Assembly: GCA_945876305.1 (NCBI GenBank)
Contig: CAMCOB010000003.1
Location: 1 to 40,295 of the forward strand
Direction of reading: 5' to 3'
DNA: 40,295 nucleotides
Source: Bifidobacterium breve
Lineage (GTDB): Bacteria; Actinomycetota; Thermoleophilia; Miltoncostaeales; Miltoncostaeaceae
The notes below the pieces were generated by a model. The model had not been told where the DNA came from and made no database searches. It saw nothing but the letters and a program-made list of their open reading frames with translations. This document shows positions 22,596 to 26,176 of this stretch, in pieces; positions within the stretch are counted from its first letter, which is position 1, and each line of letters begins with the position of its first letter. The position numbers were made by a program, and so were the translations under genes.

Positions 22596-23255
22596 ATGTC
22601 GAATGATCGAGAGATGGCGTGGGCCGCAGCGGGGGCCGCGTGCGCATCGCTGGTGACCAACGGGATGCGGGTCGGTCTCGGTACCGGACGGGCCGCCGCA
22701 GCGGGGATCCATGCCCTCGGCGAGCGTGTGCGGACCGAAGGCCTCCTGATCGTGGGCGTGCCCACATCACCTCGTAGTGAAGAAGTCGCCCGAGCGGCCG
22801 GCATCGTGATCGGGCTCCCCGGTGATCCGCTCGATCTCGCATTCGACGGCGCAGACGCCATCGACCCCACCGGGCTGTGCGTCAAGGGCGCGGGAGGGGC
22901 GATGGTGCGTGAACGGGTACTCGCCGACTCGGCGCCCAGATTCATCGTGTTGGTCGATCCCCCGAAGATCGTTGGGTCGCTGGACGAGTGGGGTCTGCTG
23001 CCCATCGCAGTGGTGCCATTCGCCGCAACACGCGTCGTGGCACAACTGGCCGACCTGGCGCCCGTCACCCGCGAGGCCCCGAGCGACGACGACATGGTGC
23101 TCGTTGACCTGACCGTGCCACCAGGCGCCGATTGGCAGCAGCTGGCCGACCGGGTGCGAGCACTTCCGGGTGTGCTGGACCACGGCCTGTTCCAACTGCT
23201 GCTCGATGATGTCCTCATCGGACACAGCGATGGATCGGTGACGACCGCCGCGTGA
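22596..23255 (+). CDS. rpiA: ribose-5-phosphate isomerase A
   Basis: GMRVGLGTGRAAAAGIHALGER...VPTSPRSEEVARAAGIVI...LAFDGADAIDPTGLCVKGAGGAMVRERVLADSAPRFIVLVDPPKIV. Confidence 0.92.
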   Translation: MSNDREMAWAAAGAACASLVTNGMRVGLGTGRAAAAGIHALGERVRTEGLLIVGVPTSPRSEEVARAAGIVIGLPGDPLDLAFDGADAIDPTGLCVKGAGGAMVRERVLADSAPRFIVLVDPPKIVGSLDEWGLLPIAVVPFAATRVVAQLADLAPVTREAPSDDDMVLVDLTVPPGADWQQLADRVRALPGVLDHGLFQLLLDDVLIGHSDGSVTTAA

Positions 23256-24631
23256 GCATCGTGGCCTCCGGATCCGCCGCCATTGCCCGCGCCGCCGGGC
23301 GGGCATCCCGGGCGATGGGCCGTGGTGGTGGCACCTCGGTGCCTGGAGTGGTGCTGCTGCGCATCAACCCCCGCGCCGTTGACACCCTGGCCGCCCGACT
23401 CGGGGGCGGAAACATCCTTGTCTCCGCCACAAACGGCAAGACGACCACCACGCGCATGCTGGGCGGAGCACTTCGCGCCGACGGAGCCGAGGTCATCACC
23501 AACGGGGCCGGGGCGAACCTCCTGTCGGGCATCGCGTCGACCCTCGCCGATGCCCGGCTGGGCCGGCCCGAAACAGCGCGTGGGCTTTTTGAGTGCGATG
23601 AGGCCGCACTCCCAGAGGTGATGGCGCGCCTCACGCCCCGCGCGCTTGTCTTGATGAACCTCTTCCGTGATCAGCTGGACCGTCATGGGGAGCTCGAAGC
23701 CATTTCCGAGCGGTGGCAGGCAATGCTGCTGGCGCCCGGTGCTCTTCCCCGCCTGATCCTGGCCGCCGACGACCCGGCGATCGCTGCGCTGGGTGTTGGA
23801 CGCGAATGCCTCTGGTTCGGGCTGGACGACCCAGCGGTGGCAGCCGGCGCTCTCCCGCACGCCGCCGACTCCACGCGGTGCCGGGCGTGCAATGCCCCGC
23901 TCACCTACGACCACGTGTGGTTCGGGCACCTCGGCGACTGGCGCTGCCCCGCATGCGGAAGCTCGCGCCCGACCCTCGATGTGGCCGTCATCGACGCCGG
24001 GCTGCGGGGCGCCACGGGGTCGGATCCACGCATCCGTACACCCGATGGCGAGGTGACCCTGCATCTCACAGTCCCCGGCCTGCACAACGTGCTGAACGCC
24101 GCCGCAGCACTCGCCGGTGCACTGGCAATGGGCGTCCGCGCAGATGTCGCTGCTGCCGCTATCTCTCAGGTTCCCGCCGCATTCGGCCGTGCTGAGCACC
24201 TTGTGGTTGATGGCACCGATCTTGTGCTGCTCCTGGCGAAGAACCCTGCGGGGGCGAATGAAAACGTGCGCACACTGCTTCTTGACCCCGGCGAGCACCA
24301 CCTTCTGGTGGCGCTGAATGACCGCATCGCCGACGGTCGGGATGTGTCGTGGATCTGGGACGTCGACTGGGAGCCACTCCTGCCCCGCGTGAGCAGTGTC
24401 ACCGTCACCGGGGAGCGGGCGCACGACCTTTCGCTGCGCTTTCGCTATGGGGGTCTCGACCCCGACCGGCTGCATGTGATCCCCGACCATCGCGCTGCGC
24501 TGGCATCTGCGATCGCCGCGGTGCCGCCGGGGGGCTGTCTGGAAGTGCTCCCCACGTACACGGCCATGCACGACATCAGGGCGGATCTTGTTGCGCGGGG
24601 CGCTGCGTCGGAGTTCTGGGATGAGGGCTGA
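23252..24631 (+). CDS. murT: Mur ligase-like MurT subunit of lipid II isoglutaminyl synthase, with Cys4 zinc ribbon
   Basis: NILVSATNGKTTTTRMLGG...NGAGANLLSGIASTL...FECDEAALPEV...NLFRDQLDRHGEL; CRACN...CPACG insertion. Confidence 0.93.
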   Translation: MSIVASGSAAIARAAGRASRAMGRGGGTSVPGVVLLRINPRAVDTLAARLGGGNILVSATNGKTTTTRMLGGALRADGAEVITNGAGANLLSGIASTLADARLGRPETARGLFECDEAALPEVMARLTPRALVLMNLFRDQLDRHGELEAISERWQAMLLAPGALPRLILAADDPAIAALGVGRECLWFGLDDPAVAAGALPHAADSTRCRACNAPLTYDHVWFGHLGDWRCPACGSSRPTLDVAVIDAGLRGATGSDPRIRTPDGEVTLHLTVPGLHNVLNAAAALAGALAMGVRADVAAAAISQVPAAFGRAEHLVVDGTDLVLLLAKNPAGANENVRTLLLDPGEHHLLVALNDRIADGRDVSWIWDVDWEPLLPRVSSVTVTGERAHDLSLRFRYGGLDPDRLHVIPDHRAALASAIAAVPPGGCLEVLPTYTAMHDIRADLVARGAASEFWDEG

Positions 24632-25406
24632 GGTGGCTGTCATCAGCCCGGCCCGTGGCTTCATTGCGGAGCACGCGCATTACATGGACGATGCGGGCTT
24701 CTGGGAGGCGCATGCCGCCCGCCTGGGCGGGCCTGTCATCGACCTAGGAGCCGCGGCAGGCAGAACTGCGATTCCCATCGCGCTGCTCGGCATTGATGTG
24801 GTCGCGGTTGACAGCGACCCCGAGATGCTTGAGGTTCTCTGGGAGCGGGCCGAGGGAACTCAGGCCGCGGCACGGGTCACGATCGTCGAAGGACTGATGC
24901 AGCACGCGGCACTGCCGACAGGCGCTGCGCTGGTGATCGTGCCCATGAACACCCTGCAGGTGCTGGTCGACCCTGTTGACCGTGCGCAGTGCTTCGCACA
25001 TGTGGCGGCGAGCCTGCGCCCTGGTGGCGAGTTCATATTCGACCTCGCAGTCCCCGATCTGGATTCAATTGAATGGGCGATCGGCGACACCATTTCCACG
25101 GGCCGATCCCGGGACCCGGCCACGGGCGATGTGCTTGTGCACACCGCGGTCTTCGACTCTCTCGACCGCACCAGCCATACCCTCGACTTCAGGGTGATCG
25201 TTGAGCGTGCTAGTGCGGCTGGCAGTACCCAGCGCGTGGAGCGGCGCCATCTGGTTCACCAATACACGTACGACGAAGTGCAGGCACTCGTGGCGTCGGC
25301 CGGGCTCACGGTGCTCGCCGTGCACTCCGGGTTCCGGGGCGAGCGCTTTACCGATTCGTCCGAACGACAGGTGTGGCGCTGTGCATGTCAGGGGCCGACG
25401 GCATGA
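24621..25406 (+). CDS. class I SAM-dependent methyltransferase
   Basis: GPVIDLGAAAGRTAIPIALLGIDVVAVDSDPEMLEVLWERAEG (SAM motifs I-II); overlaps murT by 11 bp and gatD by 4 bp (ATGA). Confidence 0.88.
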   Translation: MRAEVAVISPARGFIAEHAHYMDDAGFWEAHAARLGGPVIDLGAAAGRTAIPIALLGIDVVAVDSDPEMLEVLWERAEGTQAAARVTIVEGLMQHAALPTGAALVIVPMNTLQVLVDPVDRAQCFAHVAASLRPGGEFIFDLAVPDLDSIEWAIGDTISTGRSRDPATGDVLVHTAVFDSLDRTSHTLDFRVIVERASAAGSTQRVERRHLVHQYTYDEVQALVASAGLTVLAVHSGFRGERFTDSSERQVWRCACQGPTA

Positions 25407-26176
25407 GTGCTGACGTGCGGCTCTGCCATCTCTACCCCGATGAGATGAACATCTACGCCGACCGCGGAAACATCGCGGTGTTCCAACGGCGGCTCGAATG
25501 GCGCGGACTCCGGCTCGAAGTACGGGGGGTTGGACCGGGCGAGACGATTGATCCGTCCGCCTACGACCTGATCTACCTGGGCGGTGGTCAGGATCGTGAT
25601 CAGGCCGTGGTGGCCCACGACCTGGCCGGCAGCAAAGGCGACGCCATCATCTCCGCTGTCGAAGACGGGGTGGCCCTATTGGCGGTGTGTGGCGGATACC
25701 AGTTGACCGGGCACGGGTACACCGGCGTCGACGGATCACGCATGCCCGGTATCAGGCTGTTCGATGCCGACACCATCGCGGGGAACACGCGCCTGATCGG
25801 CGACGTGCTGATCAACGCCACCCTCAACGGTCAGACCCGCGAGGTTGCTGGATTTGAAAATCATGCGGGCCGCACAGAGCTGGGGGCTGGCGCCACGCCC
25901 CTCGGCGCAGTACTCGCGGGCCACGGCAATAGCGGGGTGAGCGGCGGCGAAGGATGCACGCGCCTGCGGGCGATCGGCACGTACCTGCACGGCCCCCTGC
26001 TGCCACGCAACCCGTGGTTGGCCGACCACATTCTGGGGTGGGCCCTCGAACACCGCACGGGCTCTGCTGCAGAGCTCGTGCCGCTCGACGACACCATGGA
26101 GATGGCTGCGCACGCGGTGGCAGTGGGACGGGCTCACGGCGATCGCCGGGAGCGCCTGATGGGGCGCCGGGGCTAG
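25403..26176 (+). CDS. gatD: lipid II isoglutaminyl synthase glutaminase subunit GatD
   Basis: LCHLYPDEMNIYADRGNIAVFQRRLEWRG...DLIYLGGGQDRDQAVVAHDL...VALLAVCGGYQLTGHGY...ENHAGRT. Confidence 0.93.
   Translation: MSADVRLCHLYPDEMNIYADRGNIAVFQRRLEWRGLRLEVRGVGPGETIDPSAYDLIYLGGGQDRDQAVVAHDLAGSKGDAIISAVEDGVALLAVCGGYQLTGHGYTGVDGSRMPGIRLFDADTIAGNTRLIGDVLINATLNGQTREVAGFENHAGRTELGAGATPLGAVLAGHGNSGVSGGEGCTRLRAIGTYLHGPLLPRNPWLADHILGWALEHRTGSAAELVPLDDTMEMAAHAVAVGRAHGDRRERLMGRRG

Follow-up and report, generated by a model that had tools for sequence, protein, structure and literature searches.

A conserved, uncharacterised methyltransferase gene between murT and gatD in some families of one actinobacterial class

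MurT and GatD convert the alpha-carboxylate of the D-isoglutamate of lipid II into an amide. The window, by which we mean the whole stretch of 40,295 nucleotides that was analysed, carries the genes of both subunits with a third gene, for a methyltransferase (hereafter MT), between them. What does a methyltransferase do at this place, and how widely is the arrangement shared? The original prediction, made from the sequence, had recognized the run rpiA, murT, methyltransferase and gatD and had proposed that the methyltransferase may act on a cell-wall precursor or on the MurT/GatD complex. The features of the locus are the following.

22596..23255, forward strand: rpiA, ribose 5-phosphate isomerase A (PF06026, Rib_5-P_isom_A, E 2.5e-35; TIGR00021 above cut-off)
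23252..24631, forward strand: murT, ligase subunit of lipid II isoglutaminyl synthase, GTG start (PF08353, MurT_C, E 2e-29; PF08245, Mur_ligase_M)
24610..24613, forward strand: GGAG, Shine-Dalgarno-like, within murT and 7 nt ahead of the MT start
24621..25406, forward strand: class I SAM-dependent methyltransferase (MT) of 261 aa, ATG start (Methyltransf_25/11; PF13649, E 1.3e-11)
25403..26176, forward strand: gatD, glutaminase subunit of lipid II isoglutaminyl synthase, ATG start (PF07685, GATase_3, E 2.6e-33)

Pfam domains uphold the four predicted gene identities, and the overlaps that had been reported (4 bp for rpiA/murT, 11 bp for murT/MT and 4 bp for MT/gatD) are exact to the base. In a close relative (G002), the MT start codon lies at the same base and is TTG, not ATG, with the same GGAG ahead of it. 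Scans for promoters and terminators returned no match and were uninformative.

Both subunits of the amidotransferase aligned end to end with the solved MurT and GatD of Streptococcus pneumoniae and Staphylococcus aureus. MurT aligns with 6fqb_A across 437 residues and retains the nucleotide loop TNGKT, the zinc ribbon with its four cysteines and the SWIWD motif. It possesses the Mur-ligase middle domain, the nucleotide-binding loop and the MurT_C domain. GatD aligns with 6gs2_A across 247 residues and is a glutaminase that retains the CGGYQ (cysteine) and TYLHGP (histidine) motifs. The NCBIfam MurT equivalog covers residues 10-449 of MurT, but at 211 of 800 bits, which is under the strict cut-off, and GatD also scores under its strict NCBIfam cut-off. 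Because the motifs of both proteins are kept, the amidotransferase of the window looks functional as judged from its sequence.

Distribution and linkage of the methyltransferase gene

The original prediction held that murT and gatD are normally adjacent. Outside the class, the two genes lie less than 200 nt apart in 64 of the 69 sampled actinobacterial genomes that carry both, and are dispersed in five. None of these 69 genomes has a murT-gatD gap of the size of the MT gene. The window resembles the MurT/GatD systems of S. aureus and S. pneumoniae in having both subunits, with their motifs kept, encoded by neighbouring and translationally coupled genes, and differs from them by the MT gene between the subunits, which is absent from the 69 genomes sampled outside the class.

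The neighbourhoods of murT were then surveyed inside the class. An MT profile of the window's family (f1) was searched against 299 genomes, and the matches were compared with the positions of murT in these genomes. The order murT-MT-gatD was found in all 27 loci of family f1 in which the surroundings of an MT match were read, and these come from many genera. The MT occupies the murT-gatD junction in 39 further loci, 23 in family f7, 10 in f5 and 6 in f9, counted when the MT lies between murT and gatD or adjoins murT at a contig end; their MTs have diverged from those of f1. This gives a total of 66 MT loci at the junction, in four families of the class, so that an insertion unique to the window's genome was rejected. 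In four sister families, murT is followed directly by gatD with no MT (4 loci in f3 and 2 each in f8, f6 and f11), and in one further f3 locus neither MT nor gatD adjoins murT. Among the genomes sampled, the murT-MT-gatD order thus occurs only within a part of one class. The carriers are a branch of actinobacteria from soil and freshwater, apparently of the class Thermoleophilia. Family f7 seems to be Solirubrobacterales-like, and one of its genomes (G197) is apparently that of Conexibacter woesei; a cultured, genome-sequenced type strain would thus appear to carry murT-MT-gatD.

The genes overlap or abut across these loci, with overlap sizes that are approximate as they rest on automatic choice of the start codon. 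In nearly all f5, f7 and f9 loci murT and MT share 4 bp, and in many f1 loci they share 8 or 11 bp; MT and gatD mostly share 4 or 8 bp. In one genome (G149), murT and MT are separate genes, 6 nt apart. Two genomes of the window's genus (G012 and G019) gave no MT match. Since rpiA and murT are absent from them too, there is probably an assembly gap for the whole block, and a loss of the MT in these genomes was rejected as evidence.

The extent of the conserved unit could be read from the upstream side. The gene rpiA stands upstream of murT in 8 of 8 murT-centred f1 loci and in none of the f3, f5, f6, f7 and f8 loci tested, where another gene takes its place. As the upstream gene varies while the MT stays, the conserved unit is murT-MT-gatD, and rpiA, which precedes murT only in the window's family, falls outside it. 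Of the predicted four-gene run, the overlaps stand and the tie of rpiA to murT holds for the window's family only. The linkage of MT and gatD was further seen in family f9. Two of its genomes carry a GGACT-domain gene inserted after murT and ahead of MT. In a third (G297) the locus is split: MT and gatD lie together, and murT is on a different contig. Purifying selection acts on the MT, whose dN/dS values are 0.17-0.22, against 0.10-0.12 for murT and 0.06-0.10 for gatD. Since the sister families have MurT/GatD without the MT, the MT is not needed for amidation. A correlation of the MT with a lack of AsnB/LtsA-type amidotransferases (PF00733) was looked for: 6 of the 7 nearly complete f1 genomes are without this domain, but the other families show a mixed pattern.

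Sequence, fold and origin of the methyltransferase

The MT has the hallmarks of a class I SAM-dependent methyltransferase. Motif I (D-x-G-x-x-x-G) and the acidic end of strand 2, represented by D41, G43, G47 and D64, are present in 90-100% of 67 relatives. AlphaFold2 models of the window's MT (pLDDT 92) and of the G197 MT (pLDDT 95) have the Rossmann-like fold of this class. In the 67 MTs compared from the four families, E17, D24, G43, G47 and R48 are invariant, Y21 is kept in 96% and W28 in 99%, with identical spacing. The motifs E-x3-Y-x2-D-x3-W and GxxxGR are thus conserved in all four families, and M109 and Q113 of an M-[NQ]-x-x-Q motif are retained in 94% of the 67 proteins. The nearest homologues that are not linked to murT and gatD (group A3) lack E, Y, W, M and Q at the matching places, and with them the E-x3-Y-x2-D-x3-W motif.

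Foldseek searches with the models gave E values down to 2e-20. The top matches were CcbJ, CypM/YunM, TylM1, DesVI and MtfA, together with C-methyltransferases. The antibiotic N-methyltransferases CcbJ, TylM1, DesVI and MtfA resemble the MT with TM-scores of about 0.54-0.77, and differ from it in their 12-28% identity and their genomic setting. The best NCBIfam match, for the window's MT and its relatives alike, was the daptide methyltransferase model NF041820. Its cut-off is 175 bits; the window's MT scored 83 and the relative scanned first scored 97. Daptide-type RiPP methyltransferases, CypM and YunM share the class I SAM fold with the MT and are among its best family and structural matches, yet the window's MT scores less than half of the NF041820 cut-off and has rpiA, murT and gatD as immediate neighbours, with no RiPP genes among those. 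No NCBIfam equivalog model reached its cut-off for the MT, and naming its substrate from family libraries was rejected for this reason. The possibility, raised with the original prediction, that the enzyme would group with a family whose substrate is known and unrelated was not borne out, given this absence of an equivalog at cut-off and the low identity of the nearest structures, which are mostly N-methyltransferases of antibiotics, peptides and amino-sugars. According to the models, the fold is that of a small-molecule or peptide methyltransferase, which would act most often at nitrogen; the fold does not fix the acceptor. That the closest solved structures (CcbJ, CypM, TylM1, DesVI and MtfA) are mostly amine N-methyltransferases was counted against ester formation.

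Did the gene enter the junction once or twice? Two related methyltransferases might have been recruited separately, one in f1 and one in f5, f7 and f9. Profile comparison placed f1 nearly as close to the unlinked A3 homologues (E 2e-38) as to f5/f7/f9 (E 2e-41), whereas f5/f7/f9 and A3 matched at E 8e-23. The C-termini of the two sets also differ. Two early trees of the MT were rejected as a test of single origin: the first, in which a clade of cluster MTs was not shown, is distorted by partial rows and long-branch outgroups, and the second is unrooted and shows only that three groups exist. In a tree rooted on more distant homologues, the cluster MTs form one clade, weakly supported (86/57), and a grouping of f1 with the unlinked homologues instead was not rejected (p-AU 0.30). 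Against separate recruitment stand this best rooted tree, the common E-x3-Y-x2-D-x3-W motif and the largely common M-[NQ]-x-x-Q motif, both absent from the unlinked homologues. The MurT tree has three groups, namely f1, the families without the MT, and f5/f7/f9, and is consistent with vertical descent. On these sequence comparisons, one ancient insertion seems likelier than two, which favours, and does not prove, orthology between the MTs of f1 and of f5/f7/f9. We consider two recruitments unlikely, though to be taken seriously; if they did occur, the functional link with MurT/GatD would be stronger, not weaker.

Candidate functions of the methyltransferase

The genome context points to lipid II, the substrate of MurT/GatD. 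We propose, with middling confidence, that the MT is a dedicated methyltransferase of peptidoglycan precursor synthesis that acts on the stem peptide of lipid II alongside MurT/GatD. The MT would be made together with MurT and GatD from their overlapping genes, and would use SAM to methylate the stem peptide, either on lipid II or on the UDP-linked precursor. While MurT/GatD amidate the alpha-carboxylate of D-isoglutamate, the MT may act on a further group of the same molecule. Its most plausible target would be a carboxylate that MurT/GatD leave free, such as that of meso-diaminopimelate (DAP), giving a methyl ester; an amine or amide nitrogen would be the alternative. The enzymatic activity, the lipid II stem peptide as substrate and the atom methylated are all predicted here. 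That the MT acts on a cell-wall precursor, as originally suggested, is the best-supported reading, and the support comes from genome context.

Stem-peptide methylation has been described in other bacteria. In mycobacterial muropeptides, the carboxyl functions are partly amidated, methylated or glycine-substituted (PMC4995902). Glu, mDAP or the terminal Ala is methylated in M. smegmatis, and O-methylation is reported in P. aeruginosa, with a function described as unknown (PMC9239049, PMC12632261). According to the available excerpts of this literature, such methyl groups have been seen by mass spectrometry since 2005 and their function was still unknown in papers of 2022 and 2025. The product predicted for the MT would be the same as the methylated stem peptides of M. 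smegmatis lipid II, of M. leprae and of P. aeruginosa (PMC4995902, PMC9239049, PMC12632261). These cases differ from the present one in that the excerpts of the three reports name no enzyme for the methylation, and in that murT-MT-gatD was not seen outside the class. Literature searches for an enzyme that methylates peptidoglycan, and for studies of muropeptides in Thermoleophilia, found nothing relevant. We know of no murT-MT-gatD arrangement in mycobacteria or Pseudomonas. The fact that the known methylated stem peptides come from these lineages, which are without this known arrangement, was counted against the stem-peptide reading, as was the existence of sister families with MurT/GatD and no MT.

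The cell-wall chemistry of C. woesei bears on the methylated atom. Peptidoglycan typing uses acid hydrolysis, and therefore a methyl ester or an N-methylamide would go unseen in C. woesei. Its peptidoglycan is of type A1gamma with ordinary meso-DAP, and members of the Solirubrobacterales give ordinary meso-DAP (PMC3035278). Full N-methylation of DAP in C. woesei would probably have been noticed, and the ordinary meso-DAP would fit an ester or N-methylamide lost in acid better than complete DAP N-methylation.

Methylation of a nitrogen, either the free amine of DAP or the amide made by MurT/GatD, is a sub-case of stem-peptide methylation with another chemistry. The best structural neighbours, which are peptide or amine N-methyltransferases (CcbJ, CypM, YunM, TylM1, DesVI and MtfA), and the daptide methyltransferase match speak for it, and E17, Y21, D24 and W28, which are conserved and either acidic or aromatic, could bind an amine. 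The identity to those enzymes is low, however, C-methyltransferases with this fold are ranked almost as highly, and the meso-DAP of the Solirubrobacterales (PMC3035278) makes complete N-methylation of DAP unlikely. We regard methylation at nitrogen as improbable and favour, with modest confidence, an O-methyl ester somewhat ahead of it. The tight coupling of the MT gene with those of both subunits could also mean that the MT methylates one of these two proteins, MurT or GatD, and thereby tunes amidation. Of the explanations considered this is the hardest to credit, as sister families run MurT/GatD without the MT, and as its nearest characterised relatives act on small molecules or short peptides, not on folded proteins.

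The MT might instead have an unrelated small-molecule substrate and keep its position by operon inertia, through expression shared with rpiA or other housekeeping genes. Class I methyltransferases differ widely in their substrates, and rpiA, which is unrelated to the cell wall, belongs to the same run in the window's family. Yet the MT stays at the junction in 66 loci of four families, although the gene upstream is not the same in all of them, and in the split locus of G297 the MT goes with gatD. Inertia poorly explains one interior gene kept while its neighbourhood turns over, and we hold it to be quite improbable. The upstream turnover, the f9 insertions, the G297 split and the purifying selection together favour a functional link between the MT and MurT/GatD, which accounts for the linkage facts better than operon inertia does and supports the stem-peptide reading.

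The murT-MT-gatD locus is a MurT/GatD locus of variant form: it includes a methyltransferase that is conserved and uncharacterised, in a linkage that is strict and old. The MT is a strong candidate for a cell-wall methylating enzyme. More tentatively, and short of an even chance, the MTs may form a dedicated family of stem-peptide methyltransferases, physically and functionally coupled to MurT/GatD, that yields methylated lipid II in part of the class. The MT is a concrete and testable candidate for the enzyme of stem-peptide methylation, an orphan modification of the cell wall, and its gene is locked between those of the two amidotransferase subunits in four families. If the stem-peptide reading is true, the MT would be, to our knowledge, the first enzyme assigned to this methylation. 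Lipid II would then undergo a further reaction that masks a carboxylate or an amine, in addition to amidation by MurT/GatD and AsnB/LtsA, with relevance for cross-linking and for the control of hydrolases.

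Variation at the murT/methyltransferase junction

Loci read around these genes in three other genomes depart from the arrangement seen in the window. In genus member G007, the final 29 codons of murT appear, by tblastn, as two tandem copies at the junction with the methyltransferase gene; the coupled methyltransferase start is apparently retained. In two genomes of family f9 (same class), G139 and G225, murT and the methyltransferase gene are separated by an additional gene. The product would be a gamma-glutamyl enzyme, suggestively encoded next to the genes of a D-isoglutamate amidotransferase. 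The features are:

L019:1406-1495, apparent tandem repeat of the murT 3' end (G007)
L102:1536-2111 and L103:1717-2298, gene with a GGACT domain of the gamma-glutamyl cyclotransferase, AIG2-like kind (G139, G225)

Wider gene environment of murT and gatD

Upstream of murT lies rpiA in the window's family, whereas a diacylglycerol/lipid kinase-like gene, called by inspecting translations by eye, precedes it in several loci of families f5 and f7 (L073, L075, L076, L077). Outside the class, murT and gatD are frequently dispersed in family f23, with 5 kb to more than 1 Mb between them (G349, G370, G360, G419, G439), in contrast to the remainder of the phylum sample. Members of f23 also have a relative of the methyltransferase, which is unlinked.

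Distribution of peptidoglycan amidotransferases

Since no Asn_synthase-domain (PF00733) protein is present in six of the seven nearly complete genomes of the window's family (G018, G007, G002, G020, G022, G028), no AsnB/LtsA-type diaminopimelate amidotransferase was found in them. PF00733 presence is mixed in the sister families. Five members of families f2 and f4 from the same class (G037, G039, G042, G044, G049) gave no murT match at E 1e-60, suggesting that lipid II amidation has been lost or has strongly diverged in them.
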